From: Mycobacterium cookii
GTDB lineage: Bacteria; Actinomycetota; Actinomycetes; Mycobacteriales; Mycobacteriaceae
Length of the DNA stretch: 64,000 nucleotides
Reading direction: 5' to 3'
NCBI RefSeq assembly: GCF_010727945.1
Contig: NZ_AP022569.1
Coordinates: 2,728,001-2,792,000, forward strand
In this document: positions 32,492 to 54,950 of the stretch, in pieces
Layout: every line of letters begins with the position of its first letter
Numbering within the stretch: position 1 is the stretch's first letter
The notes under the pieces: generated by a model
Told to the model about the DNA's origin: nothing
Database searches by the model: none
What the model saw: only the letters and a program-made list of their open reading frames with translations
Position numbers and translations under genes: made by a program

Positions 32492-33622
32492 CTATTCGCG
32501 TATGACCCCACGCAAGGGCATCAGCCCGAGTTCGTTGTGGCTCATGAACCCTGGCGGTGCATCCACGACGGCGGGTATCGCGTTCGCAGGTCCCATCGCG
32601 GTCCAGGTGTACCCGGGAAGTGCGTAACCGCCGTCGGGATCCGCGGCCCCCTGGAGGATGAGCTCGGTGGATGAGTCACCCTCGATCACGATGCGGTAGT
32701 GGTAGTGCTGCGGCCAGTCCTCTTGCGGCTCAATAGCATCGAATGTGTCCATCGTGTAGATCTCGTGAAAGACGACAAGCGGCCTGTTGTTCACCCACGC
32801 CGTCCACTTATGATGCTGCCGCGCCACGGTGCCTGCCTTGATCACACCTTTGAACCCCGGCATATCGCTGGTCTCGCCGCCTTCGAACGGGATGTCGCGG
32901 GTGGCGACCCCGAGCTCGACCTCGGTGGTGTACCTGTCGACTGTCTTGCCCATTCCCTCGACGATCATGGCCATCGACTGTGCGAACAACGGCCATGCCT
33001 GCCCCAGCAGATTGGGGCCGTCTTCGAAACCGGCCGGATCACTGCCCATGCCCATCTCGTACAGATACTTCAAGGTGTCTCTGCCGAAATTCACCACCTC
33101 GTAGATGTGGATGGTGTCGATCTGGCTGACGATTCGCGCCAGCGTCAGAACGAGCAGGTCTCCAGCGAAACCGGGGTTGACGCCCCCGGCGTGAAACGAT
33201 GTCCCGCCCTCGATACACGCCGCGTGGATCTTGTCGATATCAGCTTGACTGTGTTCGGTCCGATACCACCATGCGCCCCCAGAGGCGACGACGTTCTTGC
33301 CTCCGCGCAGCAGTCGGCAGACCTCGTCGGGGTCAGACCACAGCGGCGCATAGAAGACGCAGTCGGCTTCCAATGCCTCGATAGCATCCTTGTCATTGGT
33401 GGCGCGCACACCGGTCGGTGCCTTACCGCAGAGTTCGCCGGCATCTTTGCCGACCTTCTCTGGACGGTTGCAGAGCACCCCGACCAATTCGTAGGCGGGG
33501 TTATGGGCAAAATGGCGAAGCGCTATCGTTCCGACGTTTCCGACGCCCCACTGGATTACGCGATACTTCTTGTCGACCGGGGACCTGGTTGCGTTTGCGT
33601 GACCTTGCTCGACCGTCGTCAT
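32492..33622 (-). CDS. DapB-fold NAD(P)-dependent oxidoreductase, paralogue 1
   Basis: A 376-aa protein of the dihydrodipicolinate-reductase-like superfamily (the group that includes 2,4-diaminopentanoate dehydrogenase). The Rossmann motif VIQWGVGNVGTIALRHF is near residue 20; NPGFAGDLLVLTLARI and a C-terminal PPGFMSHNELGLMPLRGVI are shared with the two paralogues at 34469 and 42333. The ATG at 33622 has a strong AAGGAGGAG just upstream. The family reduces imines or oxidises amines or carbonyls; these actinobacterial members are uncharacterised to my knowledge. It closes a minus-strand operon with two SDRs and a second paralogue. Confidence 0.8.
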   Translation of the reverse strand: MTTVEQGHANATRSPVDKKYRVIQWGVGNVGTIALRHFAHNPAYELVGVLCNRPEKVGKDAGELCGKAPTGVRATNDKDAIEALEADCVFYAPLWSDPDEVCRLLRGGKNVVASGGAWWYRTEHSQADIDKIHAACIEGGTSFHAGGVNPGFAGDLLVLTLARIVSQIDTIHIYEVVNFGRDTLKYLYEMGMGSDPAGFEDGPNLLGQAWPLFAQSMAMIVEGMGKTVDRYTTEVELGVATRDIPFEGGETSDMPGFKGVIKAGTVARQHHKWTAWVNNRPLVVFHEIYTMDTFDAIEPQEDWPQHYHYRIVIEGDSSTELILQGAADPDGGYALPGYTWTAMGPANAIPAVVDAPPGFMSHNELGLMPLRGVIRE

Positions 33623-33647
33623 TGCTCCTCCTTCGGTTTCATGATCA

Positions 33648-34475
33648 CTAGTTGATCGACACTCCCGCATCGACTTTGAACTGCAGTCCGGTGACAAAAC
33701 GCGATTCGTCCGAGATCAGGAACAGCACCGCGTTGCTGACGTCCACGGGTTCGATGCATGGCGTGGGCATGGCGTTGACGAACATCGGTATCAGGTCCGG
33801 ACGTTCCTCGCCGAGAGTGGCGCCGAACGACGGCGGCACCATACCGGTGGGCGTCCCGGTAGGATGCACCGAATTGACCCGGATACTCTGTGCAGCAAGC
33901 TCATTGGCGAGCGCAATCGTTAAGCCCGTAACACCGTACTTGGTTGCGGTGTAGGGAATTTGAAGCGGGAATCCCTTCATCGCACCCGCCGAGCTGATGT
34001 TGACCAAGCTGCCGCCTCCTTGGGCGAGCAGATGCGGGATCGCCGCGACGCAGGTGTTCCACGTCCCGATGAGGTTCACATCGACGACTGTGCGCCAGTG
34101 ATCGGAAGTTGTTCTGTCCCAAGGTGCGACGGTGAGCACACCGGCGTTGGCGACGGCGCCGTCCAATCCGCCCAGTTCGTCCACGCCTTCGTCGACAGCT
34201 GAGCGCAATGCCGCTTCGTCGCGGACATCAGCGACTCGGCTCACGCAGCGGCCGCCGTGCTCGGCGACCAAGCGCACCGTCTCTGCCAAATCGTCCTTTG
34301 TGGCCAAGTCGTATTCGAGCGCCGGCAGGGACTCACAGAGGTCGACGAGAATGAGATCGGCACCCTCCTCGGCGAGTCTGAGCGCGTGACTGCGCCCCAA
34401 ACCGCGTGCGGCACCGGTGATCAGGACTCGTTTGCCTGCGACCCGTCCGATCGACGGTCTAGGTCCAGTCACCAC
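33648..34475 (-). CDS. Mycofactocin-coupled SDR family oxidoreductase
   Basis: A 275-aa SDR. After the nucleotide motif TGAARGLGRSHALRLA it has the segment DLCESLPALEYDLATKDDLA, an insertion typical of SDRs that hold NAD(H) tightly and exchange electrons with the peptide cofactor mycofactocin. The catalytic Tyr/Lys is YTATK, Ser is in NISSAG, and the C-terminus reads FKVDAGVSIN. The start is GTG 34475 or 34472; the latter overlaps the upstream stop. Mycofactocin SDRs oxidise alcohols, often terpenoid or aromatic ones, so the operon probably handles a small hydrophobic alcohol. No mycofactocin biosynthesis genes are in the window. Confidence 0.85.
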   Translation of the reverse strand: MVTGPRPSIGRVAGKRVLITGAARGLGRSHALRLAEEGADLILVDLCESLPALEYDLATKDDLAETVRLVAEHGGRCVSRVADVRDEAALRSAVDEGVDELGGLDGAVANAGVLTVAPWDRTTSDHWRTVVDVNLIGTWNTCVAAIPHLLAQGGGSLVNISSAGAMKGFPLQIPYTATKYGVTGLTIALANELAAQSIRVNSVHPTGTPTGMVPPSFGATLGEERPDLIPMFVNAMPTPCIEPVDVSNAVLFLISDESRFVTGLQFKVDAGVSIN

Positions 34476-35542
34476 ATCAGTCCGCTGATAATTTCTGCCG
34501 CAGGGATGTCTTCGACGGCGATCAGCCCTGCCGGCGCGCGGCAGACCCAGTCGATCGCATTGACTACCCGAGCTGCGGTGGAAAGACATCCCGCCTCGGT
34601 GACGTCAAGCCCCGGGTGTGACACGTGCGTGTTCAGCTCGACGCGAGGATCCCCGTCAACGACGACTCGGTGTACGCCCGGACGGCCGTCGGGCGGATAG
34701 GGCCAGCCCGGGGCCGAGTCGGCGGTGAGTCGCGTGATGTGTTCCATGGTGATCACCGGAACTTCGTCACGAACCCCTTCGACCGCGAACTTCACCGCGG
34801 CCATTTGACCCGGCTCCACCGTCGCCATCTTGCATTCGATCCGTTTGTCGGTGTACCACGGCTCGATGCGTTGCCTCACCTCGTCGAGTTGCACTCCCAG
34901 CTGCTCGGCGAGGTTGCGAACCGCGCCGCCCCACATCGTGGTCAGGACGCCCGGCAGGAACAGCATCGGCGTATCATCCTCGGCGCTGACACCGAAACCC
35001 ATTTGTTTGCCAGTGAATTCGTAATCGTCGTAGTTGGCGTAGTCGAAGATTTCCTGCACGGTGATCGCCCGGGCGCGGGTGACCAGGCTCAGCGCGGAGT
35101 GCACCTCGGTGTCGCCGGAGTAGCCAGGGTCGATGCCGTTGACATACAGCGAAGCGTTGCCGGCCTCGCAGGCTTGTTGCAGCGGCACCCGTAGCCAGTC
35201 GTCGGCCTGGCGAGGCGTGACCAGCCACACCATCGATGTCGCCACGATATTGATGCCCGCAGAAAGGAACTTCGACATCTGCTCGATGACTTCCATCGGC
35301 CGCGTCTCACCCTGTGCGGTGTAGACGACACAGTCCGGCTTCAGCGCAATGAGCGCGTCGATGTCATCGGTCGCAATGATGCCGGTCGGCTCGCTCAGCC
35401 CGCACAGATCGGCGGCGTCACGACCGATCTTGTCCGGGCTGGCGGCGTGCACGCCGACCAATTCTAGATCCGGGCGCCCGATGATCGCCGGTAGCGAATG
35501 GACCCCGACATTACCGGTCGAAAATTGAACTACCCTGCGCAT
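34469..35542 (-). CDS. DapB-fold NAD(P)-dependent oxidoreductase, paralogue 2
   Basis: A 357-aa relative of the proteins at 32492 and 42333. The N-terminal motif VVQFSTGNVGVHSLPAII, the segment VGVHAASPDKIGRDAADLCG and the downstream NGIDPGYSGDTEVHSAL are conserved. The ATG at 35542 begins the conserved strand; a longer in-frame reading to 35998 is antisense to the next gene and is rejected. The stop overlaps the mycofactocin-type SDR start. The upstream SDR ends 17 bp before it. Probably reduces or oxidises a small carbonyl or imine; substrate unknown. Confidence 0.8.
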   Translation of the reverse strand: MRRVVQFSTGNVGVHSLPAIIGRPDLELVGVHAASPDKIGRDAADLCGLSEPTGIIATDDIDALIALKPDCVVYTAQGETRPMEVIEQMSKFLSAGINIVATSMVWLVTPRQADDWLRVPLQQACEAGNASLYVNGIDPGYSGDTEVHSALSLVTRARAITVQEIFDYANYDDYEFTGKQMGFGVSAEDDTPMLFLPGVLTTMWGGAVRNLAEQLGVQLDEVRQRIEPWYTDKRIECKMATVEPGQMAAVKFAVEGVRDEVPVITMEHITRLTADSAPGWPYPPDGRPGVHRVVVDGDPRVELNTHVSHPGLDVTEAGCLSTAARVVNAIDWVCRAPAGLIAVEDIPAAEIISGLMW

Positions 35543-35559
35543 CCCGCGTCCGTCCTTGA

Positions 35560-36348
35560 TCAGTAGTCGGGAATCGGCAACGGCGAGTTGTTCGAGTCGA
35601 TGCCGCCGTCCACATGAAAGATCGCGTTGGTTGCGTAACAATCCCGGGTGGACAGATAAACGCACAGCCGCCCGAGGTCGGCGACGTCGCCCAGGCGATG
35701 CAGCGGTGTCGTCTCCTCCATCTTTTCTCGCGATCCAGGCATCAGGTCGAGGCTTCCCTGCAAGCCATCGGTGGCGAACGAGCCCAGGGCTATCGCGTTG
35801 ACGCGGATCTTCGGCGCCAGTTCCTGCGCCATTGCACGGGTAAGGGCCTCGAGTCCGCCCTTGGCGACGCAGTACGCCGTCAGCGCGCGGATACCGAAAC
35901 GGGCTGAGCCAGAGGAAATGTTGACGATGTTGCCGTGGCCTGCCTCGATCATGTGCGGCGCCACGAGCTGGCTCATGATGAACGCCGACGTCACACACCA
36001 GTCGAAGGTGTGCCGGAAGTCCTCGTCGGTGATGTCGAGAAATCGTGCATAAGTCGAGCCGCCGACATTGTTGATCAGAATATCAACGCGCCCAAAGTGT
36101 TCCATGGCCGCAGCGACGACCCGCTCACCGTCAGGGCGGCTCATGGCATCGGCGGTCATCGCCAGTCCGCTGCCACCGGCATCTTCGATACCGGCAATCG
36201 TTGCGCGGATATCGGATTCAGTACGTGCGGTCCCGACCACTGTTGCGCCCGCCTCCGCCAGGACTCTCGCAATGCCCTGCCCGACGCCCTTCCCCGCGCC
36301 GGTGACGATCGCGACTTGTCCGTCCAGATTGAACTGCTCAAGCGCCAT
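35560..36348 (-). CDS. Short-chain dehydrogenase/reductase
   Basis: A 262-aa classical SDR. The nucleotide motif TGAGKGVGQGIARVLAEAG is at residue 16, the centre has NNVGGSTYARF, Ser is in NISSGSARF, and the catalytic Tyr/Lys is YCVAK. The C-terminus ends FHVDGGIDSNNSPLP. It is the first gene of the minus-strand operon with two DapB-fold paralogues and the mycofactocin-type SDR. Its promoter faces that of the TetR gene at 36490, and the shared region holds a TGACT-N2-AGTCA palindrome, so it is probably in that regulon. Confidence 0.88.
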   Translation of the reverse strand: MALEQFNLDGQVAIVTGAGKGVGQGIARVLAEAGATVVGTARTESDIRATIAGIEDAGGSGLAMTADAMSRPDGERVVAAAMEHFGRVDILINNVGGSTYARFLDITDEDFRHTFDWCVTSAFIMSQLVAPHMIEAGHGNIVNISSGSARFGIRALTAYCVAKGGLEALTRAMAQELAPKIRVNAIALGSFATDGLQGSLDLMPGSREKMEETTPLHRLGDVADLGRLCVYLSTRDCYATNAIFHVDGGIDSNNSPLPIPDY

Positions 36349-36396: not shown

Positions 36397-36408
36397 TGAC
36401 TTTAGTCA
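36397..36408. promoter_or_regulatory. TGACT-N2-AGTCA operator, copy 1
   Basis: The 12-bp sequence TGACTTTAGTCA has perfect 5-bp arms and sits in the 141-bp divergent promoter between the SDR operon (start 36348) and the first TetR gene (36490). The same arms recur at 37873-37884 and, with one mismatch, at 37095-37106. Confidence 0.65.
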
Positions 36409-36489
36409 ACGGAATGAAAGGGTGCCCGCGGCCGCGGCTGCAGCTATCCTGCAGATCGGGCGGGGTACGGGGATCAGAGGAAACGGACC

Positions 36490-37089
36490 ATGGCAACGGT
36501 GGAAAAGCCTTCGGCGCGAGAGGCGAAGCGCCTGCAGACGCGCGAGCGCTTGCTGGGAGCTGCTATCGCCGAGTTCAAGCGTGCCGGCATGGCAGACGCC
36601 GACGTCGGTTCGATCGTTGCGGCTGCAGGAGTTGCGCACGGCACGTTCTTCTTTCACTTCCCGACCAAGGAACACGTGTTGCTGGAACTCGAACGGCGCG
36701 AAGAGGAGCGCATCGCCAAACAGCTCGATCGCTACCTTGACGCTGCCCCCGATCTGTCCTCCACCCTCAAGGAGGCGGTTCGTCTCGTCGTGGGCCTCGA
36801 GCGTCGGCTCGGCGCGAGCCTGTTCAAAGACTTTCTTGCTCTGCATTTCTCACAGACCCGCCCCACCGACGAGAGCAAAGAACATCCGGTCATCGTCCGG
36901 GTCGCACAGGAGATCGAGCGGGCCCAGCAATTGGGTCGCGTTGCACCGCAGGTTGTTCCGGTCAATAGTGCCGTGTTCTTCCTGCTGGGCCTCTATGCGT
37001 TGCTGACCACCACGCACGACTGGCCCACCCAGAGCGCGATGCTCGACGACTACGTCGCCAGCGCGCTGCGGAGTCTTGAAACGCGGTAG
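36490..37089 (+). CDS. TetR-family regulator, paralogue 1
   Basis: A 199-aa regulator. The HTH spans residues about 12-60 (LQTRERLLGAAIAEFKRAGM through GTFFFHFPTKEHVLLEL), followed by a helical domain ending LLGLYALLTTTHDWPTQSAML. It is a clear paralogue of the TetR at 37911; both share IVAAAGVAHGTFFFHFP and the closing LLG-YG/A-LTTT region. The DNA-recognition helices are nearly identical, so both probably read the same TGACT-N2-AGTCA operator while their ligand domains differ. The ATG at 36490 follows a GGAAACGGACC stretch. Confidence 0.88.
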   Translation: MATVEKPSAREAKRLQTRERLLGAAIAEFKRAGMADADVGSIVAAAGVAHGTFFFHFPTKEHVLLELERREEERIAKQLDRYLDAAPDLSSTLKEAVRLVVGLERRLGASLFKDFLALHFSQTRPTDESKEHPVIVRVAQEIERAQQLGRVAPQVVPVNSAVFFLLGLYALLTTTHDWPTQSAMLDDYVASALRSLETR

Positions 37090-37094
37090 CTGAT

Positions 37095-37106
37095 TGACGA
37101 GAGTCA
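37095..37106. promoter_or_regulatory. TGACT-N2-AGTCA operator, copy 2 (one mismatch)
   Basis: TGACGAGAGTCA lies five bases after the first TetR stop and 45 bp before the membrane-protein start. It matches the other copies apart from one arm position, and an extra GTCA follows directly. It suggests that the membrane-protein gene has its own regulated promoter. Confidence 0.5.
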
Positions 37107-37150
37107 GTCATTTCGGGAGGATCGGGCCAGCCGACCGGTAGGAGGGATCC

Positions 37151-37846
37151 TTGAGTTCGCCCACGATGACCACCACAGGCAGCCAGCTCGACGAACACTT
37201 CGAGCAGTCTCACCTCGCCCAGCGGCAAGCCGACAAGTGGCTCATCTCGGGAAGCATCCTCATCGGTACCGCGGCTCTCGGTATCTTCGGCCTCCCGCTG
37301 TTTCTCCGAGGGGTGTGGCTGCTGCGCAAGGCGCAACGCGACGGCCTGGCGGTCCGGCCGATGCTGGTGACGCTACTTGGTTACCTGGTCATCATCGACG
37401 CCGCCATCAACACGGTGGGGTGGGCGCTCGACCTGGTGGCCAATCACACCATCCTGGCCCGAATCCTGTTGAACGGCTGGGGTGCAATGTTCGATGCCGG
37501 CTACTTCTGGCACTACAACGAGCTGTGGGTCGGTGGCGCGGCGGGGCCGGGCGAGAAAGCCCTCGAAGTCGGCCTGATCCTCACGGTGTTCACCATGCGG
37601 ATCGCGGCCGCGATCGGCTTCCTGCAGATGAAGCGGTGGGGCCACCAATGGATGGTCATCACCTGCTGGATGGGCGTGCTGATCTGGTGCGTCTACGTCT
37701 TCAACATGACGATGTTCGCCGACGTCCGCTATGCCGGTGTCATCTTCCCCGTCGTCGGCTGGTGGCTCTACGACATCTTCTACATCACGCCGTTTCTGGC
37801 CATCCCGTATCTGCACACGGTCAACCGCGAGATCTTCACCGACTGA
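37151..37846 (+). CDS. Polytopic membrane protein of unknown function, paralogue 1
   Basis: A 231-aa integral membrane protein. Six hydrophobic segments are visible: about residues 30-58, 66-92, 100-122, 134-158, 166-190 and 192-222. Polar signatures lie at their edges ([38 protein letters not shown]), with His and acidic residues that could bind metal. The TTG start at 37151 has GGAGG five bases upstream. The last 90 residues match the paralogue at 41177 at 83 positions. I recognise no family. The location beside VWA and AAA+ chaperone genes suggests a metalloenzyme subunit. Confidence 0.75.
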   Translation: MSSPTMTTTGSQLDEHFEQSHLAQRQADKWLISGSILIGTAALGIFGLPLFLRGVWLLRKAQRDGLAVRPMLVTLLGYLVIIDAAINTVGWALDLVANHTILARILLNGWGAMFDAGYFWHYNELWVGGAAGPGEKALEVGLILTVFTMRIAAAIGFLQMKRWGHQWMVITCWMGVLIWCVYVFNMTMFADVRYAGVIFPVVGWWLYDIFYITPFLAIPYLHTVNREIFTD

Positions 37847-37859
37847 CTTGACCAGCTAT

Positions 37860-37884
37860 TGACTTAAATCATTGACTCTAGTCA
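37860..37884. promoter_or_regulatory. TGACT-N2-AGTCA operator, copy 3, with an adjacent degenerate copy
   Basis: TGACTCTAGTCA (37873-37884) has perfect arms. Immediately upstream TGACTTAAATCA (37860-37871) matches all but one arm base, so two sites sit in tandem one base apart, ending 26 bp before the second TetR ATG. Confidence 0.65.
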
Positions 37885-37910
37885 GTAATCACTGCTAGAA
37901 AGGCTAGACC

Positions 37911-38513
37911 ATGACGCCACAGGTCAAGGCCACCGCACGCGAGATGCGTCGACGACAAACCCGGGAGCGCATACTCGGCGCGGCGATCGCCGAGTTCAAG
38001 CGCTCGGGGATGACGGGCGCCGACGTGAATGCGATCGTCGCAGCCGCGGGAGTCGCCCACGGGACGTTCTTCTTCCACTTCCCCAGCAAGGAACATGTAC
38101 TGCTTGAGCTGGAACGTAGCGAAGAAGCAGGCATCGCCGCGGCATTCGCAGAATATCTCGAGGACCCACACGGACTTCCTGACGCGTTGACCGAAGTGGT
38201 CGGTCTTGTGACCGCCCTGGAGCGGCGACTCGGTCCGCTGCTGTTCAAAGAGCTTTTAGCGCTGCATTTCTCGCCGACACGTCCCACTAAAGACGACTGG
38301 AGCGATCATCCTGTGATCGTGCTTTTGGTCGACGAGATCGAACGGGCGCGAGGCGACGGGCATGTGCATCCGGAAGTGGACGCCTTCTACAGCGCGACGT
38401 TCTTTCTGCTGGGCATCTACGGCGTCCTCACCACGACCGACAGTGCCGACACGCGCGCCACGATGCTGGCGAATTTGATTGCCACAGCCGTGCGAGGTTT
38501 GGAGATCCGGTGA
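37911..38513 (+). CDS. TetR-family regulator, paralogue 2
   Basis: A 200-aa regulator paralogous to the one at 36490. HTH residues about 12-60 (RRRQTRERILGAAIAEFKRS through GTFFFHFPSKEHVLLEL) are nearly the same; the ligand domain differs more (YLEDPHGLPDALTEVVGLVT, DEIERARGDGHVHPEVDAF). Tandem TGACT-N2-AGTCA sites lie just upstream, so autoregulation is likely. It heads the run 34-aa peptide, VWA protein, AAA+ ATPase, 42-aa peptide, membrane protein 2, 144-aa protein. Two regulators with one operator type could integrate two ligands. Confidence 0.88.
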   Translation: MTPQVKATAREMRRRQTRERILGAAIAEFKRSGMTGADVNAIVAAAGVAHGTFFFHFPSKEHVLLELERSEEAGIAAAFAEYLEDPHGLPDALTEVVGLVTALERRLGPLLFKELLALHFSPTRPTKDDWSDHPVIVLLVDEIERARGDGHVHPEVDAFYSATFFLLGIYGVLTTTDSADTRATMLANLIATAVRGLEIR

Positions 38514-38555
38514 CGTCAAGGAGCATGCCACAGCACATCGACAAGGAGGCCTGAC

Positions 38556-38660
38556 ATGGATTGGATCTGGGAGATACTGCGTTACGTCGCAGCGTGGGGA
38601 GGCACGGGCCTGGTCATCTGGTTCTGGTACTGGATGTTCTCGAACCTCGGCACATTCTGA
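38556..38660 (+). CDS. 34-aa single-span membrane peptide
   Basis: A short gene encoding 34 residues, starting MDWIWEILRYVAAWGG with a Trp- and Tyr-rich transmembrane stretch (LVIWFWYWMF). It has a strong ribosome binding site (AAGGAGG at 38543-38549) six bases before the ATG, and its stop abuts the GTG of the VWA gene. Such tiny hydrophobic proteins are often accessory subunits of membrane oxidases or oxygenases. Confidence rests on the ribosome binding site, exact spacing and the similar 42-aa peptide before the second membrane protein. Confidence 0.7.
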   Translation: MDWIWEILRYVAAWGGTGLVIWFWYWMFSNLGTF

Positions 38661-40199
38661 GTGTCGATGATCGAACTCTCCGACGCACATGCAATGGCGG
38701 TCGAACGCAGTTGCGCAGTGACGGCTGTCGCCCTGAGCGGGCGCCGTCGCGAGGGCGTGCGTCTGGTGACCGGTGAGCGTCGTGAGTTCGGCTTGAGCAC
38801 CACACTGGATTTTGTACACGTTCCGTATCCCCTGATCGCACGGCACTGGACACGCAGGACACTGACATGCGGTGTGGCATTTCAATGTTCGCCATCCAAG
38901 GAGAAGATCACCGAATATCGGCTCGGCGAGCTGTCGGCCCGCGAACTGCGCGCAGTCACACTCGTCGAGGCCGGTGTGGCCCTGGGGTGGATCGCATCGA
39001 ACTGGCCCGGATTGCTCGAGGAAGCACGCCGGATGCTGCCGGAGCTGACCGCGTTGCCAGCCGACACCGATGCCGTCGAGATCATCAACCGGGCGATCTC
39101 GATGTCACGCACCTCGGCTGCGCTGAAAGTTGACCCGCTCCTGGGTAAATTGCCCCTGGCCTACACGGCGCCGCAGGGCTTGACCGAGAAGCTGCGTCGC
39201 AGCCTCGGCCGAATGCCCTGGACGACAACGCAAAAGCGCCTGCCGCGGCCCTACTCGGTGCCGGTCGGCGGCGACGGCGGCGTGCGTAACCCCAACCTGC
39301 CACCACCCAGCCGGCCTCAGGACAACGACCTCGATGTCACTCCAGAGCACCGGCCGGGCATCCCCTACCCCGAGTGGAATTCCTGGACAAACAGCTTCAT
39401 GCGCGACCATGTCGCCGTCGTCGAGCGCACGCATGCCACCGCGACGCGCGCGCCGGAGCCGGTGTCCGCAGAGCTGCGAAAGTGGTTCGAAGAACACACC
39501 CACCGGGCGATGACGAACCGCCTCGAGGACGGCTCAGACCTGGACGTCGAGCAGTACGTGCGCCACTACATTGACCTGGCGACCGGAGAGGCGATCGAAC
39601 CGCGTATCTTCCGCGACTTGTTGCCCGCCAGCCGCGACGTCACCACCGCGCTATTGCTGGATGGCAGTTCATCTTTGGGTGTGCACGGCGGACGGATCTT
39701 CAAGCTGGAGTTGACCTGCGCCGATGCGCTGTCCAAAGCGATGACCCTGGCCCGGGAGCGCCACGGAATATTCGTATTCACCGGCAACACCCGACACCGC
39801 GTCGAAGTCAGTTGCCTCAAGGATTTCCAGGATCGGCGTTTCGTGCCGCCAGGCCGGCTCGGTCTGGTGACCGGCGGTTACACCAGACTCGGCGCGCCGT
39901 TGCGCCACTTGACCAGTCGGCTTCTTGCCCAGCCCTCCGAGCGGCGACTGCTCATCGTGATCGGCGACGGGCTGATCTCCGACGAGGGCTACGAGGGTCG
40001 CTATGCGTGGGCCGATGTCGCGCACGCGGTCGAGGAAGCCAACGACGCGGGCGTATCCATCTACTACCTGGGTGTCGGACCGACCCGCGTTGACCCACTG
40101 CCCGAGGTCTTCGGACCCCTTCGCTCCCAACGCATCCGGAGAGTCGAAGAACTTCCGCGGGTGTTGGCCCACGTTCACCGTGAGCTGGTAACCGCATGA
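38661..40199 (+). CDS. NorD/CoxE-like VWA-domain protein
   Basis: A 512-aa protein with a C-terminal von Willebrand A domain (about residues 325-512). The metal-ion-dependent adhesion site is complete: Asp334-x-Ser336-x-Ser338 (LLLDGSSSLG), Thr408 (TGGYTRLG) and Asp436 (VIGDGLISDEG). The N-terminal 230 residues are helical. An acidic/Pro linker (about 210-235) and PYPEWNSWTNSFMRDHVAVVE resemble NorD/CbbO-type proteins. With the AAA+ gene 22 bp downstream it should form a chaperone pair that remodels a target enzyme, as NorQ-NorD do for nitric oxide reductase. The target here is probably the adjacent membrane proteins. Start GTG 38661; ATG 38667 is an alternative. Confidence 0.82.
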   Translation: MSMIELSDAHAMAVERSCAVTAVALSGRRREGVRLVTGERREFGLSTTLDFVHVPYPLIARHWTRRTLTCGVAFQCSPSKEKITEYRLGELSARELRAVTLVEAGVALGWIASNWPGLLEEARRMLPELTALPADTDAVEIINRAISMSRTSAALKVDPLLGKLPLAYTAPQGLTEKLRRSLGRMPWTTTQKRLPRPYSVPVGGDGGVRNPNLPPPSRPQDNDLDVTPEHRPGIPYPEWNSWTNSFMRDHVAVVERTHATATRAPEPVSAELRKWFEEHTHRAMTNRLEDGSDLDVEQYVRHYIDLATGEAIEPRIFRDLLPASRDVTTALLLDGSSSLGVHGGRIFKLELTCADALSKAMTLARERHGIFVFTGNTRHRVEVSCLKDFQDRRFVPPGRLGLVTGGYTRLGAPLRHLTSRLLAQPSERRLLIVIGDGLISDEGYEGRYAWADVAHAVEEANDAGVSIYYLGVGPTRVDPLPEVFGPLRSQRIRRVEELPRVLAHVHRELVTA

Positions 40200-40221
40200 T
40201 CGCCAACACGCTGAGGACCAG

Positions 40222-41010
40222 ATGATCACCAACACGTATTTCGCGAACGGCAACGAAGTCCAGTTGTTCGAGCAGGCCTACCAGCAGCGGCTGCCGGTGA
40301 TGCTCACCGGCCCGACCGGCTGCGGCAAGACCCGGCTTGTCGAGCACATGGGCCTGCTGCTGAACCGACCCGTCGTCACCATCAGCTGCCACGACGACCT
40401 GACCAGCTCCGACCTCGTCGGCCGGTTCATGGTGACCGGCGGCGACGTGGTGTGGACCGACGGCCCGCTCACCAGGGCCGTCAAGGCCGGCGCCATCTGC
40501 TATCTCGACGAAGTCGTCGAAGCACGCCACGACTCGCTGGCGATCCTGCATTCGTTGACCGACCACCGCCGCGCTCTCTACCTCGACCGGGCAGGCGAAG
40601 TCGTCACAGCGCCGGACACTTTCATGCTGGCCTGTTCCTACAACCCGGCCTACCGCAGCTCACTGAAGGAGCTCAAGCCGTCCTTCCGTCAGCGGTTCGT
40701 CACTCTTGCGATGAGATACCTGCCCGCGGTCCGAGAAGCCGAGGTCGTCGTTGCCGAAGCGGGCATCAATCCGTCGACCGCGACAAGACTGGTCGCCTGC
40801 GCCACCGCCATCCGCACCGCCGACCACGCCTTTCACTTCGAACCGCCGTCGACCCGTGTGCTGGTCACCGCCGCGCAGCTGATCGCCTCCGGCGCAAGCG
40901 AATTAGAGGCTGCCGAGGCCTGCATCCTCGCGCCACTGTCGACCGACGGCGCCATCAACGACGGCTTACGCGAGGTCGCGGTCGCCAGCCTCGCCACCGC
41001 CGACGCCTGA
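40222..41010 (+). CDS. MoxR-type AAA+ ATPase (NorQ/CbbQ/NirQ-like)
   Basis: A 262-aa AAA+ ATPase. Walker A GPTGCGKT is at 30-37, Walker B ICYLDE at 92-97, sensor 1 in ACSYNPAY, and the Arg-finger region is SLKELKPSFRQRFV. The compact size and the SCHDDLTSSDLVGRFM segment fit the NirQ/NorQ/CbbQ branch, hexamers that work with VWA partners to insert metal or reactivate enzymes. It follows the VWA gene by 22 bp and precedes a 42-aa membrane peptide and a polytopic membrane protein. This pairing is the best clue that the membrane proteins form a cofactor-bearing complex. Confidence 0.9.
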   Translation: MITNTYFANGNEVQLFEQAYQQRLPVMLTGPTGCGKTRLVEHMGLLLNRPVVTISCHDDLTSSDLVGRFMVTGGDVVWTDGPLTRAVKAGAICYLDEVVEARHDSLAILHSLTDHRRALYLDRAGEVVTAPDTFMLACSYNPAYRSSLKELKPSFRQRFVTLAMRYLPAVREAEVVVAEAGINPSTATRLVACATAIRTADHAFHFEPPSTRVLVTAAQLIASGASELEAAEACILAPLSTDGAINDGLREVAVASLATADA

Positions 41011-41051
41011 CGCACCCCTTAACAGAGAAACTGGGAAAGGAGCCAACCACC

Positions 41052-41180
41052 GTGGATCAGAAGGAACGACAGCGCAAGAAGGCGCTCATCATCCTGCAGA
41101 TCGTCATCTACGGCTACCTGTTGCTGATGTTCGGCATCCAGCTCTACATGTCCTTCGCGCGCGGCTGGTGGGAGTTGTGA
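41052..41180 (+). CDS. 42-aa single-span membrane peptide
   Basis: A short gene starting at GTG 41052 with AAAGGAG (41036-41042) nine bases upstream. The product has a charged N-terminus (MDQKERQRKK), one transmembrane stretch (ALIILQIVIYGYLLLMFGIQ) and a C-terminal FARGWWEL. Its stop overlaps the GTG of the second polytopic membrane protein (GTGA), so the two are translationally coupled and probably assemble together. It is analogous in size and position to the 34-aa peptide at 38556. Confidence 0.75.
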   Translation: MDQKERQRKKALIILQIVIYGYLLLMFGIQLYMSFARGWWEL

Positions 41181-41881
41181 ATCTTCCGCTACTGAACCGG
41201 TCCTCTGACAACCCGGTCAGCCTCGAGGACCATCACGACGAATCTCGTCTAGCACAGCGCCGGGCCGACAAATGGATGATCGTCGGCGCCGCTCTGATGG
41301 GGATGTGGGCGCCGGGCCTGATCGGCTTCCCCATCTTCATGCGCGGAGTCTGGCTGCAGCGCCAGGCTTTACGAGCAGGCCTGTCGGTGCGGCCGATGAT
41401 CGTGACCTTGATCGGTTATCTGGTGCTGATCGACGGAGCACTCAACAGCCTGGGGTGGGCGTTGGATCTGGTTGCCAATCACACGTTGATCAACCGGGTG
41501 CTGATGGTCGGCTGGGGCAACATGTTCGATGCCGGTTATTTCTGGCACTACAACGAACTGTGGGTTGGCGGCGCCGCAGGCCCCGGCGAGAAAGCGTATG
41601 TGGCGGGGCTGATCCTGACGGTGTTCGCAATGCGCTGTGCCGCGGCGATCGGCTTCTTGCAGATGAAGCGGTGGGGCCACCAATGGATGGTCATCACCTG
41701 CTGGATGGGCGTGGTGATCTGGTGCGCCTACGTGTTCAACATGACCATGTACGCCGACGTGCGCTACGCGGGCGTGGTATTCCCCGTCATCGGCTGGTGG
41801 CTCTACGACATCTTCTACATCACGCCGTTCCTGGCCATCCCGTACCTGCACACGGTCAACCGCGAAATCTTCACCGACTGA
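41177..41881 (+). CDS. Polytopic membrane protein of unknown function, paralogue 2
   Basis: A 234-aa integral membrane protein with the same six-segment layout as the protein at 37151. Invariant polar stretches are [39 protein letters not shown] and [12 protein letters not shown]. The N-terminal halves have diverged while the C-terminal 90 residues match at 83 positions and are also close at DNA level. The GTG at 41177 overlaps the 42-aa peptide stop; GTG 41168 is an alternative. No known family is recognised; it is not evidently PmoA, PmoC or AlkB. It is probably a subunit of a membrane enzyme served by the VWA/AAA+ pair. Confidence 0.75.
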
Positions 41882-41901
41882 ACACTTTAAGGAGCACAGT
41901 T

Positions 41902-42336
41902 GTGACTTCACCACTACCCGCACCGGCGTCCACCGAAGACACGGATCCCGGCGAGGACTTACCGCCTGGCACCACGCCGTACTACGCCCGGATGCACAAG
42001 TACATCAAACGGGCCGTCATCGTCTGTCTGGTCGCCCTCGTGATCGAAGGTGCCTTCACGCTGCCCTTCATGGCGGTTTACTACGGCTATCCGACGCTGA
42101 GCCTGACTCAGATCTGCAGCGAACTGCTCAAGGTCCGCTACTCCGACGACACCTTGGAGTGCAAAGTTCCGTATCCCATGTTCGGGCCACCCGAGGGCGC
42201 CGAGGGTAAGGACACCGCCCGCGACCAATGGGGCATCCAGCCGGTTCCGAAATATCACCGGCTGAAATTCCGCGAACTGGTGCGCATCCACGACGCGCGG
42301 GTAGCCCGGCAGCAGCAAGGTGCTCAGCATCCGTGA
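41902..42336 (+). CDS. 144-aa single-span membrane protein
   Basis: A 144-aa protein with a Pro/acid-rich N-terminal tail, one transmembrane helix (about residues 38-62, [20 protein letters not shown]), and an 80-residue C-terminal domain. That domain carries two Cys (QICSELL, LECKVPY) and a Pro-rich [10 protein letters not shown] segment. GTG 41902 has AAGGAG seven bases upstream. It follows membrane protein 2 by 20 bp, and its stop overlaps the next gene's GTG. It may be a third subunit, with the C-terminal domain outside the membrane. I do not recognise a family. Confidence 0.72.
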
Positions 42337-43424
42337 CCGCCGTAATCGACGGTAGGCCGAAAAGTGCTGAGCGGCAGACCTATCGGGTAGTTCAATGGAC
42401 GACCGGCAACATCGGCACGAAGTCGGTGCACGCGATCGTCGAGAACTCACTGCTCGAGCTTGTCGGATGCTACGCGTGGTCGCCGGACAAGGTCGGCCGC
42501 GACGTCGGGGAACTATGCGGGATCGCGCCACTCGGCGTGCGGGCCACCCACGACATCGACGCGCTGATCGGCCTCGAGCCTGATTGTGTGGTGTACAACC
42601 AGATGTTCGCCGACGTCGACGATCTGGTCCGCGTTCTCGAAGCGGGCATCAACGTTGTCACCACGTCCGAGTTCATCACCGGCCATCGACTCGGCGAAGG
42701 GCGCGGACGCATCCTGCAGGCCTGCGAACGCGGTGGCTCTACGATCTTCGGCAGTGGCCTGAACCCCGGCTTCATCGAACTCTTCGCGATCGTTTCTGCC
42801 GGACTCTCGGACAGGATCGAGAGGGTGCGCATCGTGGAATCGTTTGATACCACGATCTACAACTCACCGGAGACCGAGAAGATCATGGGATTCGGATACC
42901 CGATCGACTACCCGGACCTGCCGGCGGTGACTGAGGAAGGGTCGGGGATATTTCGCGAGGCCGTTCTCATCGTCGCCGATGCATTGGGGGTTGAGCTCGA
43001 CGAGATTCGTTGCGAGGCACAGTATGCTCAGGCCACCGAAGACGTTCACCTTCCCGGGGACTGGGTGATCGCCAAGGGCTGTGTGGCCGGAATCGACGTG
43101 AGCTGGAAGGGCTTTGTCGGTGAGCGTGACGTCGTCGAGGTACGTGGCGTGTGGACCAAGGGACAATCGCTGGAGCCGACGTGGACGATGGGCTTCGGAT
43201 ACAACGTCACGGTCGAGGGTCGGCCGACGATCAAGACCACGCTGGCGTTCGAGCCGCCCGCAGATTTCGTAGCGGAGACGATCGAGGAATACATCCTGCT
43301 CGGTCTGACCATCACAGCCGTGCCGGCCATCACCGCGATACCGGCCGTCGTCGCAGCGCCACCCGGCATCGCGACCTACAACGATCTGCCCCTGCTACTT
43401 CCGCGCGGAGTCCTGCGAACATGA
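42333..43424 (+). CDS. DapB-fold NAD(P)-dependent oxidoreductase, paralogue 3
   Basis: A 363-aa protein related to those at 32492 and 34469. It has the Rossmann motif [53 protein letters not shown], and a C-terminal [23 protein letters not shown] 42333 overlaps the membrane-protein stop (GTGA), and the stop overlaps the VOC gene (ATGA), tying the oxidoreductase to the membrane cluster. It likely acts on a carbonyl or imine intermediate in the same pathway as the P450 downstream. Confidence 0.8.
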
Positions 43425-43864: not shown

Positions 43865-45091
43865 GTGACCATTGACGCCGTCAGGCCGAGCGTCTTCGAC
43901 GCTGAACTACCGACTCTGAGTTATGACCTCACCGACACACCACAGCAGATCTATCCGCAGTTCCGAGCAGCGCAGCAGCAGGCGCCGATCGCTCTGGGAC
44001 CCATTGGGCCCGAGATACTTTCGTACGAGCTGGCCCGAACCGTGCTCCGTGATCCACGATTCGTGATTCCTCCGGGAATACATCTCTCAGCCCACGGGAT
44101 CACGTCGGGACCGCTGTGGGACAGAGTTACGCACAGCATCTTGAACATGGAGGGCGACGAGCATCGCCGGCTGCGCGGCCTGGTGTCCAAGGCGTTCACA
44201 CCGCGGGCGACAGCGCGCATGGACGAGACGATCCAGGTCGTCGTCAACGAGCTCGTCGATCACGTCGCGGACTCGGGCCGTTGCGAGTTCGTCGCCGACA
44301 TCGCGCGGCCCTACCCGATACCGATCATCTGCGCGCTGCTCGGTGCGCCTCGTGAGGATTGGCAACAATTCTCACGGTGGGCCGAGGACATCTTCAAAAT
44401 CGTGAGCTTCGACTGCGATCTCGCCAAAGAGGAGCCTGTCGTCCTGAAAGCGTGGGCCGAGTTCGACGACTACATCGACGACATGGTCGCGCGCAGGCGT
44501 CAACGCCTGACCGAAGATCTGCTATCCGAGCTGATCGCCATCGAGGACGCGGGTGACCGCCTCAACGCCGGCGAATTGCGCATGTTGGCGTTCAGCATTC
44601 TGGTGGCCGGCACCGATACGACGCGCAGCCAACTCGCCGCATCCATGCAGGTGCTCTGCGATCACCCCGAGCAGTGGGCACTGCTGCGCGATCAACCCCA
44701 ACTGGCAATGCGTGCCGTCGAGGAAACGATGCGACATTCACCATCGATGTGCAGCACCGTACGCAGCGTCAACAGCGACGTCGAGATCGGCGACTACACC
44801 TTCCCCGCAAGCACTTTCATCTTGGTGAACACCTACGCGGCCAATCGTGATTGCGCGGTCTACGACGATCCGACGCGCTTCGACATCACTCGAGACGAGC
44901 CACCCCCCATCTTGACCTTCGGCGGAGGAGTGCATTACTGCCTGGGCGCCAACCTGGCGCGGCGAGAACTCGCCGAAGCGCTCAAAATCCTCTCCCAGCG
45001 CCTGCCCAACCCACGGCGAATCGGAACGACGCCGTGGAAGCCGTTGCTCGGCATGAGTGGGCCGACCAGCCTGCCCATCGAATTCGGCTGA
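43865..45091 (+). CDS. Cytochrome P450
   Basis: A 408-aa P450. The I-helix AGTDTT is at 248-253, ExxR spans E287 to R290 (EETMR), and the haem stretch [15 protein letters not shown] has Cys359. GTG 43865 has GAGGAG a few bases upstream. It is the last gene of the plus-strand run that contains the membrane proteins, a DapB-fold oxidoreductase and the VOC protein, so it probably hydroxylates a substrate of that pathway. No redox partner gene is nearby. Family assignment is not possible by eye. Confidence 0.93.
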   Translation: MTIDAVRPSVFDAELPTLSYDLTDTPQQIYPQFRAAQQQAPIALGPIGPEILSYELARTVLRDPRFVIPPGIHLSAHGITSGPLWDRVTHSILNMEGDEHRRLRGLVSKAFTPRATARMDETIQVVVNELVDHVADSGRCEFVADIARPYPIPIICALLGAPREDWQQFSRWAEDIFKIVSFDCDLAKEEPVVLKAWAEFDDYIDDMVARRRQRLTEDLLSELIAIEDAGDRLNAGELRMLAFSILVAGTDTTRSQLAASMQVLCDHPEQWALLRDQPQLAMRAVEETMRHSPSMCSTVRSVNSDVEIGDYTFPASTFILVNTYAANRDCAVYDDPTRFDITRDEPPPILTFGGGVHYCLGANLARRELAEALKILSQRLPNPRRIGTTPWKPLLGMSGPTSLPIEFG

Positions 45092-45093
45092 TG

Positions 45094-45732
45094 CTAGCCA
45101 CTCCGGGCCCGAAGGAGTTGCACGCCTGGACCTTTGAGCTCATCGACATAGGCCATGCGTCCGGCCATGCCCATCACGAGGGCCAGCGTTGACCCGGTGA
45201 CCAGAGCGCCGCTGCCCGCGCGGAACAGTCCGTCGTCGGCCTCGACCCGGAGATCGGCGATGCGACTACGGCTGGGCACGGCGAAGTTTCGCTGAGCGAA
45301 GAACTCCGCCGCCGCCGTCAGTGCTCCGAGGCTCGGTGTTCGCTCCAGCCCCAGCGGCTGACGGATGTCCTGGGCATGGACAACCACCTCACCCAGGTAA
45401 GCGGGGAGATGCGGCGACGGTGCGACGGTGCTTGCGACGACCGCACGGAACCGGTCCAGCGTCTCGGCGGCAGTATCGCCGCGATGCTCTGCCAGCCGAC
45501 GACGGTTGTGGACATCGGGACGAAAGCGCGCCCAGAACATACTGCGCAACCATCGCCATTGATTCAGGCTCGCCGCGGCCGTCAGGTGGGCGACGACCTC
45601 CTCGACGTTCCACGAACCACACAGCGTCTCGTGCCGCCACTGCTCAGCGTCAAGGCCTGCCAGGTCCCCGGCGAGCGCTGCCCGCTCGGTGTGCACCAGC
45701 GCCCACAGGTCGTCGTGCTCGGACTTCGCCAT
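45094..45732 (-). CDS. DinB/MDMPI-like mycothiol-dependent family protein
   Basis: A 212-aa protein resembling mycothiol-dependent maleylpyruvate isomerase-type proteins with an N-terminal DinB-like helical bundle. Likely metal-binding His residues are in NVEEVVAHLTAAA and VVVHAQDIRQPLG; WNVEEVVAHL is characteristic. The ATG at 45732 (MAKSEHDDLWALV) was chosen over upstream in-frame starts. It is convergent with the P450, 2 bp from its stop. It could conjugate or isomerise a product with mycothiol; no substrate can be assigned. Confidence 0.78.
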   Translation of the reverse strand: MAKSEHDDLWALVHTERAALAGDLAGLDAEQWRHETLCGSWNVEEVVAHLTAAASLNQWRWLRSMFWARFRPDVHNRRRLAEHRGDTAAETLDRFRAVVASTVAPSPHLPAYLGEVVVHAQDIRQPLGLERTPSLGALTAAAEFFAQRNFAVPSRSRIADLRVEADDGLFRAGSGALVTGSTLALVMGMAGRMAYVDELKGPGVQLLRARSG

Positions 45733-45797
45733 ATCCCTGTACTCCATCACATCGAGTTAGACAGGCGTCGGACGCCAAACTCATCGGGCCGTCACGC

Positions 45798-45825
45798 CTT
45801 TACAGATCAGTTCCGTCTTGTAAAG
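45798..45825. promoter_or_regulatory. Inverted repeat CTTTACA-N14-TGTAAAG
   Basis: Perfect 7-bp arms at 45798-45804 and 45819-45825 are centred 21 bp apart, two helical turns. They lie in the 101-bp divergent region between the DinB-like gene (45732) and the kinase-like gene (45834). The right arm ends eight bases before the GTG at 45834, so it may also overlap the ribosome-binding region. Confidence 0.5.
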
Positions 45826-45833
45826 ATGCATCG

Positions 45834-46955
45834 GTGGCTTACACATCGCGGCGGGTGGTGCCGGTCCTCGGGCTGGCAGCCCACCTCGGCCGTGGAATGC
45901 AGCGCGTCGCAACCGATACCGTGATCGGCCGGATGCGGACGCTGCCACGAACGATCGCCGACCTCGACGCCCGGTCGCTCTCGCAGATCATCGGGCGACC
46001 GGTGACGTCGATATCGATGATCGGCGGCGACGCGGGCACGTCGTCCCGGGCAAGGCTCGCGCTGACCGGCGACGGCGTTCCCGAGTCGGTCTTCGTCAAG
46101 ATGCCCGCCGAAACCGTTGCCACCCGGCTGATGGGCGAACTCGGTCGGCTCGCCCAGACCGAGGTGCTGTTCTATCGCGACCTGGCGCCGCAGCTCACCG
46201 GCTTACCCGTGGCATACGGGTCGGCATTCGACTCGCTGACCGGACGCTTCGTGCTCGTCCTGGAGGACTTGGCGGTCGATCCGTGCGTGTTTCCCGACAC
46301 CCTGCATCCGCTCGACATAGACCAGGCGAGCCAGATCGTCGAGCTGTTGGCCCGGCTGCATGCGGCCTTCTGGGAACGACTGCCCGCCTGGACTTACTCC
46401 GCGTCCGGCGATCACACTTCGCTGTTGACCGCACCGCTGCTGAACACCTCGGCCCGTCGGCTGGCCGAGCGAACCGACATCGGGGTCGAGGACGGTCGCT
46501 TCATCATCGAGAAATATCGAGCGGTCGCCGAACTCATTGACCGACAGCCGAATACGGTCATGCACGGCGATGCGCATCCCGGCAATGTCTACTTCCGCAA
46601 CGATGAGGCCGGTTTGCTCGACTGGCAGGCCGTTCGCCGCGGACATCCGGGCCGCGAGTTGGCTTACACGCTCATCACCGGCATGACGCCCGCCGACCGG
46701 CAGGCCGCCGAGCGTGACCTCCTCACCGACTACCGGCGTGCTCTGGTCGCCGCCGGTGGCCCCGAACTCGATGCCGACGAACTGTGGCTGCACTACCGGC
46801 AAGGCGCGCTGTACGCCTACGTCGCACCCCTGATCACCGCCGGGATGGGCGGAATGCAGGTGGAAAGCATTGCACTGGAGGGTGTTCGACGTGGCGTCGC
46901 GGCGCTCGGCGATCTGGAGACGGTAGCCGCCCTGCAGCAGGGGTTGTCGCCGTAA
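45834..46955 (+). CDS. Aminoglycoside-phosphotransferase-like (APH) kinase
   Basis: A 373-aa protein with the APH/choline-kinase fold. The Brenner motif HGDAHPGN is at 244-251 (catalytic Asp246), the metal-binding DW at 263-264, and the ATP-site Lys is probably Lys89 (VFVKMP). Mycobacterial relatives are often annotated as phosphotransferases linked to acyl-CoA dehydrogenases, with unknown substrates. The GTG at 45834 is a guess; ATG 45897 is an alternative. The MBL-fold gene follows after 11 bp. Confidence 0.82.
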   Translation: MAYTSRRVVPVLGLAAHLGRGMQRVATDTVIGRMRTLPRTIADLDARSLSQIIGRPVTSISMIGGDAGTSSRARLALTGDGVPESVFVKMPAETVATRLMGELGRLAQTEVLFYRDLAPQLTGLPVAYGSAFDSLTGRFVLVLEDLAVDPCVFPDTLHPLDIDQASQIVELLARLHAAFWERLPAWTYSASGDHTSLLTAPLLNTSARRLAERTDIGVEDGRFIIEKYRAVAELIDRQPNTVMHGDAHPGNVYFRNDEAGLLDWQAVRRGHPGRELAYTLITGMTPADRQAAERDLLTDYRRALVAAGGPELDADELWLHYRQGALYAYVAPLITAGMGGMQVESIALEGVRRGVAALGDLETVAALQQGLSP

Positions 46956-50363: not shown

Positions 50364-51151
50364 GCATGGGTCCCGCCGTCGATGCGGATCTCGGTGCCGG
50401 TGATGAACGCGCCGTCCTCGGACACCAGCATCGCGATCACACCGGCGACCGCCGACGGGGATGCCATGCCGGTGCCGCTGGATTCCTCGGTGGTCGGCAT
50501 GATCGGCATCAGCCTGCCGAACAGCGACCAGTCGGAGTCCTGCGGGAGGTATCCGGCTGTGGCATCGGTGATTCCGGATTTGATGCTGCCGGGTGCAACG
50601 CACACCGCGCGCACTCCCTTGCTCGCGTACTCCAGCGCCACCGCGTGCGTGAAGGACTGCACGCCGCCCTTGCTCGCCGCGTAGGCCGCCATGTAGGGGT
50701 GCGCGAAGGACGCCGATGTCGAACTGAAGTTTACGATCGCGCTGCGGGTGTTCTTCAGCAGGCTCGGCAGCGCTTCCCGGACCACCAAAAAAGTTCCAGT
50801 CAAGTTGATTCCGATGATCTGATTCCACTGATCCAGACTCATCTGGTCGGTGTGAGTGGCGCGCAAGATCCCGGCCGCGTTCACCAACGAGTCCAACCCG
50901 CCGAGCGTCTCCACCGCCGAGCGCACCCCGTCGGCGACCGACTGCTCGTCGCCGACGTTCATCTCGAGCGTTGTCAGGCGCTCCGCACAGCCGGCTTCCT
51001 GCGCCTTGGCGCGGGTCTTCTCCAAGCCGTCGGCGGCGATGTCGGCGGCGACGACGGCGGCGCCCTCGTCGAGCAGTCGCAGCGCGGTTGCTTGTCCGAT
51101 CCCCGAGGCGGCACCGGTCACCAGGATCCGGTTGCGGTCGAGTCGCTTCAT
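50360..51151 (-). CDS. Short-chain dehydrogenase/reductase
   Basis: A 263-aa classical SDR. The motif TGAASGIGQATALRLL is at residue 12, NAAGILRATH is central, Ser is in NFSSTSASF, the catalytic Tyr/Lys is YAASK, and the C-terminus reads IRIDGGTHA. It lies between a second SDR (18-bp gap) and the HsaD-like hydrolase (GTGA overlap). Likely oxidises a hydroxyl or reduces a keto group on the cluster's substrate. Confidence 0.88.
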   Translation of the reverse strand: MKRLDRNRILVTGAASGIGQATALRLLDEGAAVVAADIAADGLEKTRAKAQEAGCAERLTTLEMNVGDEQSVADGVRSAVETLGGLDSLVNAAGILRATHTDQMSLDQWNQIIGINLTGTFLVVREALPSLLKNTRSAIVNFSSTSASFAHPYMAAYAASKGGVQSFTHAVALEYASKGVRAVCVAPGSIKSGITDATAGYLPQDSDWSLFGRLMPIMPTTEESSGTGMASPSAVAGVIAMLVSEDGAFITGTEIRIDGGTHA

Positions 51152-51169
51152 CTGTACTCCTGTCGGATT

Positions 51170-53588
<2,419 letters not shown>

Positions 53589-54937: not shown

Positions 54938-54950
54938 AGAGACACCGACC

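Follow-up and report, generated by a model that had tools for sequence, protein, structure and literature searches.

What membrane complex may be encoded around the adjacent genes of an AAA+ ATPase and a von Willebrand factor A (VWA) protein in Mycobacterium cookii, and what do these two proteins do for it? The cluster lies at positions 36,397 to 42,336 of a 64,000-nucleotide stretch (the window; contig NZ_AP022569.1, positions 2,728,001 to 2,792,000) of a 5.3 Mb genome in a single contig. A sequence-only reading had described, on one strand, a paralogous pair of polytopic proteins, three small single-span proteins, a VWA protein with a complete metal ion-dependent adhesion site (MIDAS) and a NorQ/CbbQ-type AAA+ ATPase; all of these were confirmed, every gene being present in the open reading frame (ORF) listing at the same position on the + strand. 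With a probability of roughly 0.6, the locus encodes an EXPERA-like membrane complex that is matured by a NorQ/NorD-type pair for cofactor insertion and has a ring compound as its substrate.

36490..37089, + strand: TetR-family regulator 1 (TetR1), 199 amino acids (aa); Pfam TetR_N, E = 7.3e-10
37151..37846, + strand: polytopic protein A, 231 aa, TTG start; EXPERA/EBP-like fold, six membrane-length helices
37911..38513, + strand: TetR-family regulator 2 (TetR2), 200 aa, optional; Pfam TetR_N, E = 5.2e-12
38556..38660, + strand: p34, single-span membrane protein of 34 aa, conserved in relatives and minimal cassettes
38661..40199, + strand: VWA protein with MIDAS, 512 aa, C-terminal part NorD-like; Pfam VWA and NorD profile matches
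40222..41010, + strand: NorQ/CbbQ-type MoxR AAA+ ATPase, 262 aa; AAA_5, CbbQ_C and NorQ matches
41052..41180, + strand: p42, single-span membrane protein of 42 aa, start chosen; conserved in relatives and minimal cassettes
41177..41881, + strand: polytopic protein B, 234 aa, start chosen; paralogue of A (75% identity)
41902..42336, + strand: p144, single-span protein of 144 aa, start chosen; alignment of 24 sequences

For p42, B, p144 and the DapB-fold gene that follows, the reading frame stays open further upstream, and each start was chosen by gene order and conservation in relatives. With these starts, p42 and B overlap by 4 nt; the p34 and VWA genes abut.

The seven-gene core and its AAA+/VWA pair

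The cluster was compared across the best 80 of 314 related loci, a sample in which near relatives are over-represented and which comes mostly from Mycobacterium and Mycolicibacterium, with Mycolicibacter and Aldersonia also included. Gene presence was scored by tblastn at a minimum of 60% identity, and flanks reached at most 10 kb and were cut in some loci, so that counts of neighbours are lower bounds. A, p34, VWA, AAA+, p42, B and p144 occur all together in 78 of the 80 loci, on one strand and in the same order in 77; in the remaining two (L015, L057), a contig end truncates the locus. The association is not one of chance. Taken singly, p34 is present on the same strand in 79/80 loci, and p42, B and p144 in 77/80 each; the corresponding counts for TetR1 and TetR2 are 62/80 and 34/80. 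Among the flanking enzymes, a short-chain dehydrogenase/reductase (SDR) was found in 59/80 loci, the cytochrome P450 in 48/80 and the DapB-fold enzyme in 46/80. The seven-gene core is fixed, and the neighbouring SDR, P450 and DapB-fold enzymes are common but not obligatory. In two genomes (L158, L159), A is transcribed divergently from a TetR-p34-VWA-AAA+-p42-B-p144 cluster, which shows that A is separable from the remaining genes; in L145, A lies ~4 kb beyond the cluster on the opposite strand.

The ATPase matches Pfam AAA_5 (E = 2.9e-35) and CbbQ_C (E = 5.4e-22), and the Walker motifs GPTGCGKT and CYLDE are each present in at least 97% of 77 aligned relatives; with both domains and both Walker A and B, it is a MoxR ATPase of the NorQ/CbbQ type. 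Among solved structures, it is nearest to NorQ (E = 6.2e-75 and 5.1e-69), followed by a CbbQ/NirQ/NorQ-type protein (1.8e-68) and CbbQ (5.1e-67), with midasin ranking between these (about 3e-68, over several repeats). The VWA protein matches Pfam VWA at E = 3.4e-4 (21.3 bits, below the cut-off of 23.8), and the NCBIfam scan gave no match for it at E up to 0.01. Its profile, when compared with solved structures, matches NorD (E = 4.9e-44 and 6e-39) over approximately residues 219-499, the next match being CobT (2.5e-4). The MIDAS (DxSxS-T-D) consists of DGSSS, the T in GGYTRLG and the D in IGDG, and is kept in at least 97% of 79 relatives; the gene adjoins that of the ATPase in 78/80 loci, as is the case for NorD/CbbO-type partners. 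Because the VWA protein and the ATPase are closest to the solved NorD and NorQ, respectively, they are best read as a putative dedicated NorQ/NorD-type assembly or metal-loading pair.

According to the available text of PMC13036017 and PMC9976466, NorQ and NorD are required for the insertion of non-haem iron into the membrane-bound cytochrome c-dependent nitric oxide reductase (cNOR), and the authors propose that the MIDAS docks on acidic residues of NorB and that the NorD linker is remodelled. The Paracoccus system, which supplies the nearest solved AAA+/VWA relatives, shares with the window cluster the adjacency of the two genes, a membrane client and small membrane proteins encoded in the same cluster (there NorE/NorF, in the accessible part of PMC13036017). 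It differs in its client, the membrane proteins here being EXPERA-like, and in its VWA protein, that of the window being shorter than NorD (512 vs 638-646 aa) and matching it only over about the second half. No NorB/NorC-like protein, haem-copper oxidase or cytochrome c family was found among the ORFs scanned around the window core, and a cNOR system was rejected as the identity of the cluster. CbbQ/CbbO, the Rubisco activase, and RavA/ViaA have other clients, and neither is known to have an EXPERA-like partner. Both resemble the window pair in joining a MoxR AAA+ ATPase to a VWA partner (PMC9976466, as far as its text is available).

Fold and conserved residues of the membrane proteins

EBP is the human cholesterol-pathway Delta8-Delta7 sterol isomerase. 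The AlphaFold model of A (predicted local distance difference test score, pLDDT, 88.2) has six helices of membrane length, and its best fold matches, obtained with VIA-align, are EBP and sigma-2/TMEM97, aligned over 148-171 residues; NACHO is also among the nearest folds. A contains the four-helix EXPERA core of EBP and TMEM97 and, by aligned ranges, has one extra N-terminal helix relative to EBP and two relative to TMEM97. These matches do not support an undescribed fold.

At the level of sequence, no PF05241 match was found in Pfam for A, B or any of the 17 alignment sequences (A, B and 15 relatives), and comparison of the family's sequences with solved structures yielded a single match, which at E = 2 is not meaningful. 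A PF05241 scan of the genome detected two other genes, both outside the A/B locus, one just above the cut-off and one, in L106, below it. The L106 gene (L106:7280-8065, near 4780288-4781058 in the same genome) encodes a bacterial EBP-like protein. Among solved structures, this protein matches human EBP (E = 2.7e-4), and emopamil-binding protein is the name given to several of its homologues. This gene is located just upstream of genes that resemble, by eye, the mtrA-mtrB two-component pair; the second PF05241 gene is in L105, at about 7107-7886, elsewhere in the genome. EBP-like proteins of mycobacteria are mentioned in passing in the available parts of PMC4818103 and PMC9903846.

When 20 EBP-like proteins were compared with 29 distant A/B-family members in hhalign, the match had E = 0.0015 and a probability of 16%; against a second family alignment (A2), the values were E = 0.0048 and 7%. 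Slightly different settings gave a score of 36.7 (E = 1.7e-4, probability 49%), compared with 15.8 for the reversed alignment and a mean of 17.2 (standard deviation 3.5, maximum 26.5) for 60 window-shuffled alignments. The alignment of the family with the EBP-like profile is colinear. The A/B family is probably a distant relative of the superfamily that includes EBP, TMEM97/sigma-2 and TM6SF2; because the PF05241 match is absent, we term it EXPERA-like and do not file it as a member. What sets it apart, beyond the extra N-terminal helices, is the constant company of small proteins and of the AAA+/VWA pair. The L106 type of EBP-like protein is weakly related to the family by profile, whereas no VWA, AAA+ or small-subunit relative was found in its 16-kb region; the 16-kb region of L105 likewise yielded no VWA or AAA+ relative. 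Thus, an EXPERA protein does not, as a rule, need an AAA+/VWA neighbour.

Residue conservation was analyzed in 201 distinct rows (80 of A, 77 of B, 11 from minimal cassettes, four of the type found in M. branderi and 29 distant). Identical in 201/201 rows are D28, G39, G65, R69, P70, D83, N87, W91, D94, D115, N123, G128, G129, E135, W163, Y182, R193, W205 and P219. A copy on contig 23 of G612, which stands outside the table and lies beside VWA and AAA+ genes, departs at D28, D94, N123 and G128 and keeps D83, D115 and E135. H121, E124 and H222 are fixed in 168/168 A, B and minimal-cassette rows, where H165 is nearly fixed; all four are absent from the M. branderi type (0/4 rows), and the distant rows keep H121 in 1/29, E124 in 1/29, H222 in 4/29 and H165 in 0/29. 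Members without the H121/E124/H222 set in G121 and on contig 23 of G612 still adjoin VWA/AAA+ genes. The sequence-only reading had pointed to conserved His and acidic residues: the acidic part stands, with D83, D115 and E135 kept throughout, and the His part does not extend to most distant members. A metal site formed by the conserved His was accordingly rejected, and the conserved D, N and E residues are candidates only for a site of bound metal. By the positive-inside rule, the segment 97-132 (with D115, H121 and N123) would face outside, and the K161-R162 loop and the C-terminus would be cytosolic. In p144, an alignment of 24 sequences shows three invariant Cys, C42 in the helix and C72 and C87 in the probable extracytoplasmic part; its AlphaFold model is poor (pLDDT 59.5).

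In the accessible text of PMC4263179, EBP D108 (TMEM97 D56) is the most conserved acidic position of the superfamily, and an alanine scan gives H76, E80, W101, Y104, D108, R110, Y111, E122, T125, N193 and W196 as catalytic positions. D115 aligns, via hhalign, with an Asp of the bacterial EBP-like proteins that in turn aligns with D108, and Y118 corresponds to Y111 (Phe in three M. branderi-type rows). E122 corresponds, via the bacterial EBP-like proteins, to E139, which is Glu in 80/80 A rows and Val in 76/77 B rows. H76 and E80, in contrast, align with N87 and W91, the R110 position is not Arg, and T125 and W196 are not evidently kept; with several catalytic residues absent, A and B do not have the residue set of the Delta8-Delta7 sterol isomerase. 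For N193, the counterparts given by the profile alignment and by the structural end-of-range offset differ by about one turn. Position 208 (A numbering), near N193 by the structural offset to within about a turn, separates paired from solitary forms, being Asp in 80/80 A and 77/77 B rows and Asn in all 11 minimal cassettes.

These residues bear on a different account of the locus, in which A and B are a metal-free EXPERA isomerase or sterol-type binder, and the AAA+/VWA pair remodels or reactivates them, as CbbQ/CbbO does with Rubisco, and inserts no metal. The fold match, D115 and Y118 at the D108 and Y111 positions, E139 in A and the persistence of VWA/AAA+ in G121 despite the loss of His all suit this account. 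H76, E80, T125 and W196, which are not evidently kept, speak against it, as do the metal-inserting role of the nearest known relatives, NorQ and NorD, and the EBP-like genes of L105 and L106, in whose 16-kb regions no VWA or AAA+ relative was found. We regard it as possible, at odds well short of even.

The fixed His bear on another proposal, made in the sequence-only reading, that of a metal-dependent membrane oxygenase feeding the P450, SDR and DapB-fold enzymes. Although the NorQ/NorD-type pair, the invariance of H121, E124 and H222 across the A, B and minimal-cassette rows and the P450 and oxidoreductases nearby would fit such an enzyme, nothing that we found supports an oxygenase as such: the leading fold matches are not oxygenases, no ferredoxin or reductase gene was found within the core, distant members beside VWA/AAA+ lack the His set, and the P450 and DapB-fold genes were found in the flanks of 48/80 and 46/80 related loci. 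The same reading had judged the polytopic proteins to be unlike PmoA/PmoC or AlkB, and no Pfam match to AMO, PmoC or FA_desaturase was found for 17 A/B-family sequences at E up to 10 or for p34, p42 and p144 at E up to 1; PmoA/PmoC and AlkB identities were rejected on this basis. An oxygenase is, in our judgement, improbable.

A complex that is not an enzyme at all (a transporter, a lipid-binding or a signalling complex, with the TetR pair sensing its ligand) would agree with the TetR genes adjoining the cluster and with sigma-2/TMEM97 and NACHO, non-enzymes as far as is known, among the nearest folds. However, the invariance of D28, R69, D83, N87, D94, D115, N123, E135 and R193 is more typical of an active site, an argument tempered by the G612 contig 23 copy, which departs at three of these positions, and the setting is catabolic. 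This alternative, too, appears unlikely.

Occurrence of the pair with the membrane family

A sample of 198 genomes of the genus was searched for the membrane family, starting from its M. branderi homologue, and for the VWA protein, for which the profile separates cognate matches (E < 1e-180) from other VWA proteins (best listed, 1.2e-45). The membrane family was matched in 107/198 genomes (two of the matches are fragments); 104 genomes have both it and the cognate VWA, three have the membrane family only, none has the VWA only and 91 have neither (Fisher p of about 1e-53, without correction for relatedness). The three membrane-only genomes comprise a fragment at a contig start (G399), a 73-residue frame (G545) and an intact M. 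branderi-type protein (G453). Together with the kinship to NorQ and NorD, this co-occurrence supports the proposal of the sequence-only reading that the membrane protein set has an AAA+/VWA pair of its own. With matches in roughly half of the species sampled from the genus, the family likely has a general function in these bacteria.

At the level of the locus, the picture differs. Twenty further loci were chosen by eye as unlike ordinary A/B pairs, a non-random set that does not comprise all such copies. In eleven of these (L143, L146-L151, L154, L156, L157, L160), p34, p42, EXPERA and p144 form a cassette of four genes, and the surrounding 13-15 kb or so yielded no relative of the VWA or AAA+ gene; seven have VWA and AAA+ between p34 and p42; and the M. 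branderi type, lacking VWA/AAA+, accounts for the last two (L141, L142). Fixed co-occurrence thus fails among these selected loci, and the proposition that the pair is always in the locus was rejected; among genomes, co-occurrence largely holds. Since all eleven minimal-cassette genomes carry the cognate VWA elsewhere, the p34-p42-EXPERA-p144 quartet is the constant core, and one VWA/AAA+ pair may serve several clients. In L144 (G575), a VWA/AAA+ cluster is followed directly by an EXPERA gene of the M. branderi type, which has a fused small subunit; this genome has six membrane-family matches. The more specific proposal of a metal-dependent EXPERA-fold heterodimer with three micro-subunits, whose own NorQ/NorD pair serves several client copies across the genome in trans, is offered tentatively, as about one chance in three at best.

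Outside the genus, 24/394 genomes of a class sample were matched at E 0.001 and 10/396 of a phylum sample at E 0.01; one marginal phylum match (G207, E = 0.0068) has an internal stop and is a weak match of 50 residues only. Single-copy p34-VWA-AAA+-p42-EXPERA-p144 clusters occur in G050, which belongs to a different genus of the family, and in G784, G809 and G859, which belong to another family. In G121, which shares only the phylum and is 40% identical, small membrane-spanning proteins, EXPERA, VWA and AAA+ are consecutive, flanked by a P450 on one side and by a kinase of the aminoglycoside phosphotransferase/ecdysteroid kinase-like (APH/EcKL) type on the other. G612 has one membrane-family copy beside VWA/AAA+ and another without them nearby. 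In G593 and G641 (94% complete, 380 contigs), no cognate VWA was found genome-wide. The VWA-less genomes with intact copies (G453, G593, G641) encode members that lack H121 and E124; in G593, the C-terminal His is still present. These few cases are no more than suggestive.

Gene neighbourhood, proposed mechanism and significance

Two further genes follow the core:

42333..43424, + strand: DapB-fold/diaminopentanoate-dehydrogenase-like oxidoreductase, start chosen; DAP_DH_C, E = 2e-7
43865..45091, + strand: cytochrome P450; NCBIfam P450 models, scores under their cut-offs

With the starts as chosen, p144 and the DapB-fold gene share 4 nt, so that the unit probably continues through that gene and a glyoxalase-like ORF (Pfam score under the cut-off) to the end of the P450 gene at 45091. 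Three DapB/diaminopentanoate-dehydrogenase-like genes flank the cluster, the others being at 32495-33697 (−) and 34472-35998 (−), and such genes recur in many related loci. Downstream in the window, besides the P450, there is an EcKL/APH-type kinase gene (45321-46952), as in the G121 cluster (L101:12163-13368); these are two cases only. The right part of the window contains HsaA-, HsaC- and HsaD-like genes, all below the Hsa equivalog cut-offs, of which the HsaC-like gene passes the cut-off as biphenyl-2,3-diol 1,2-dioxygenase. Together with genes for a flavoprotein, an FMO-like monooxygenase and SDRs, they occupy 49455-57322, a possible second ring-cleavage cluster, which is followed by an IclR regulator gene at 57397.

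Ten neighbouring genes were scanned in 5/11 minimal-cassette loci: four for AMP-ligases, two for acyl-CoA dehydrogenases, and one each for an enoyl-CoA hydratase, an SDR, an NAD-dependent epimerase and an amidohydrolase. The plasmid copy of M. branderi sits among similar genes and a Rieske protein. From these settings, a hydrophobic ring substrate can reasonably be proposed.

What computation shows is the set of genes and how well it is conserved, the relationship of the pair to NorQ/NorD, the fold match and the co-occurrence across genomes. From these we infer the complex itself, the insertion of metal, the substrate and the reaction, in the following form. A and B, two EXPERA/EBP-like six-helix proteins that are probably a heterodimer, would form an integral-membrane complex with p34, p42 and p144, which the cytosolic NorQ/NorD-type pair would mature or reactivate at the expense of ATP. 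The MIDAS of the VWA protein would dock onto an acidic patch of the complex, and the AAA+ ring, by pulling on the VWA protein, would remodel the complex such that a cofactor, most likely a metal, is inserted. The mature complex would then act on a hydrophobic, steroid- or terpenoid-like ring compound within the membrane and pass it to soluble SDR, DapB-fold and P450 enzymes.

No description of this gene cluster was found in the open-access literature, to the extent that its text was available. If the proposed scheme is correct, the fold of EBP and sigma-2, associated chiefly with cholesterol metabolism in eukaryotes and with drug binding, would be a client of a bacterial AAA+/VWA pair, a client class that is not named in the available portions of the literature consulted, and NorQ/NorD-type chaperones would gain a small, genetically tractable client. 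Two questions would then become testable: which feature of a membrane client is recognised by such pairs, and what reaction the EXPERA-like proteins of bacteria carry out.

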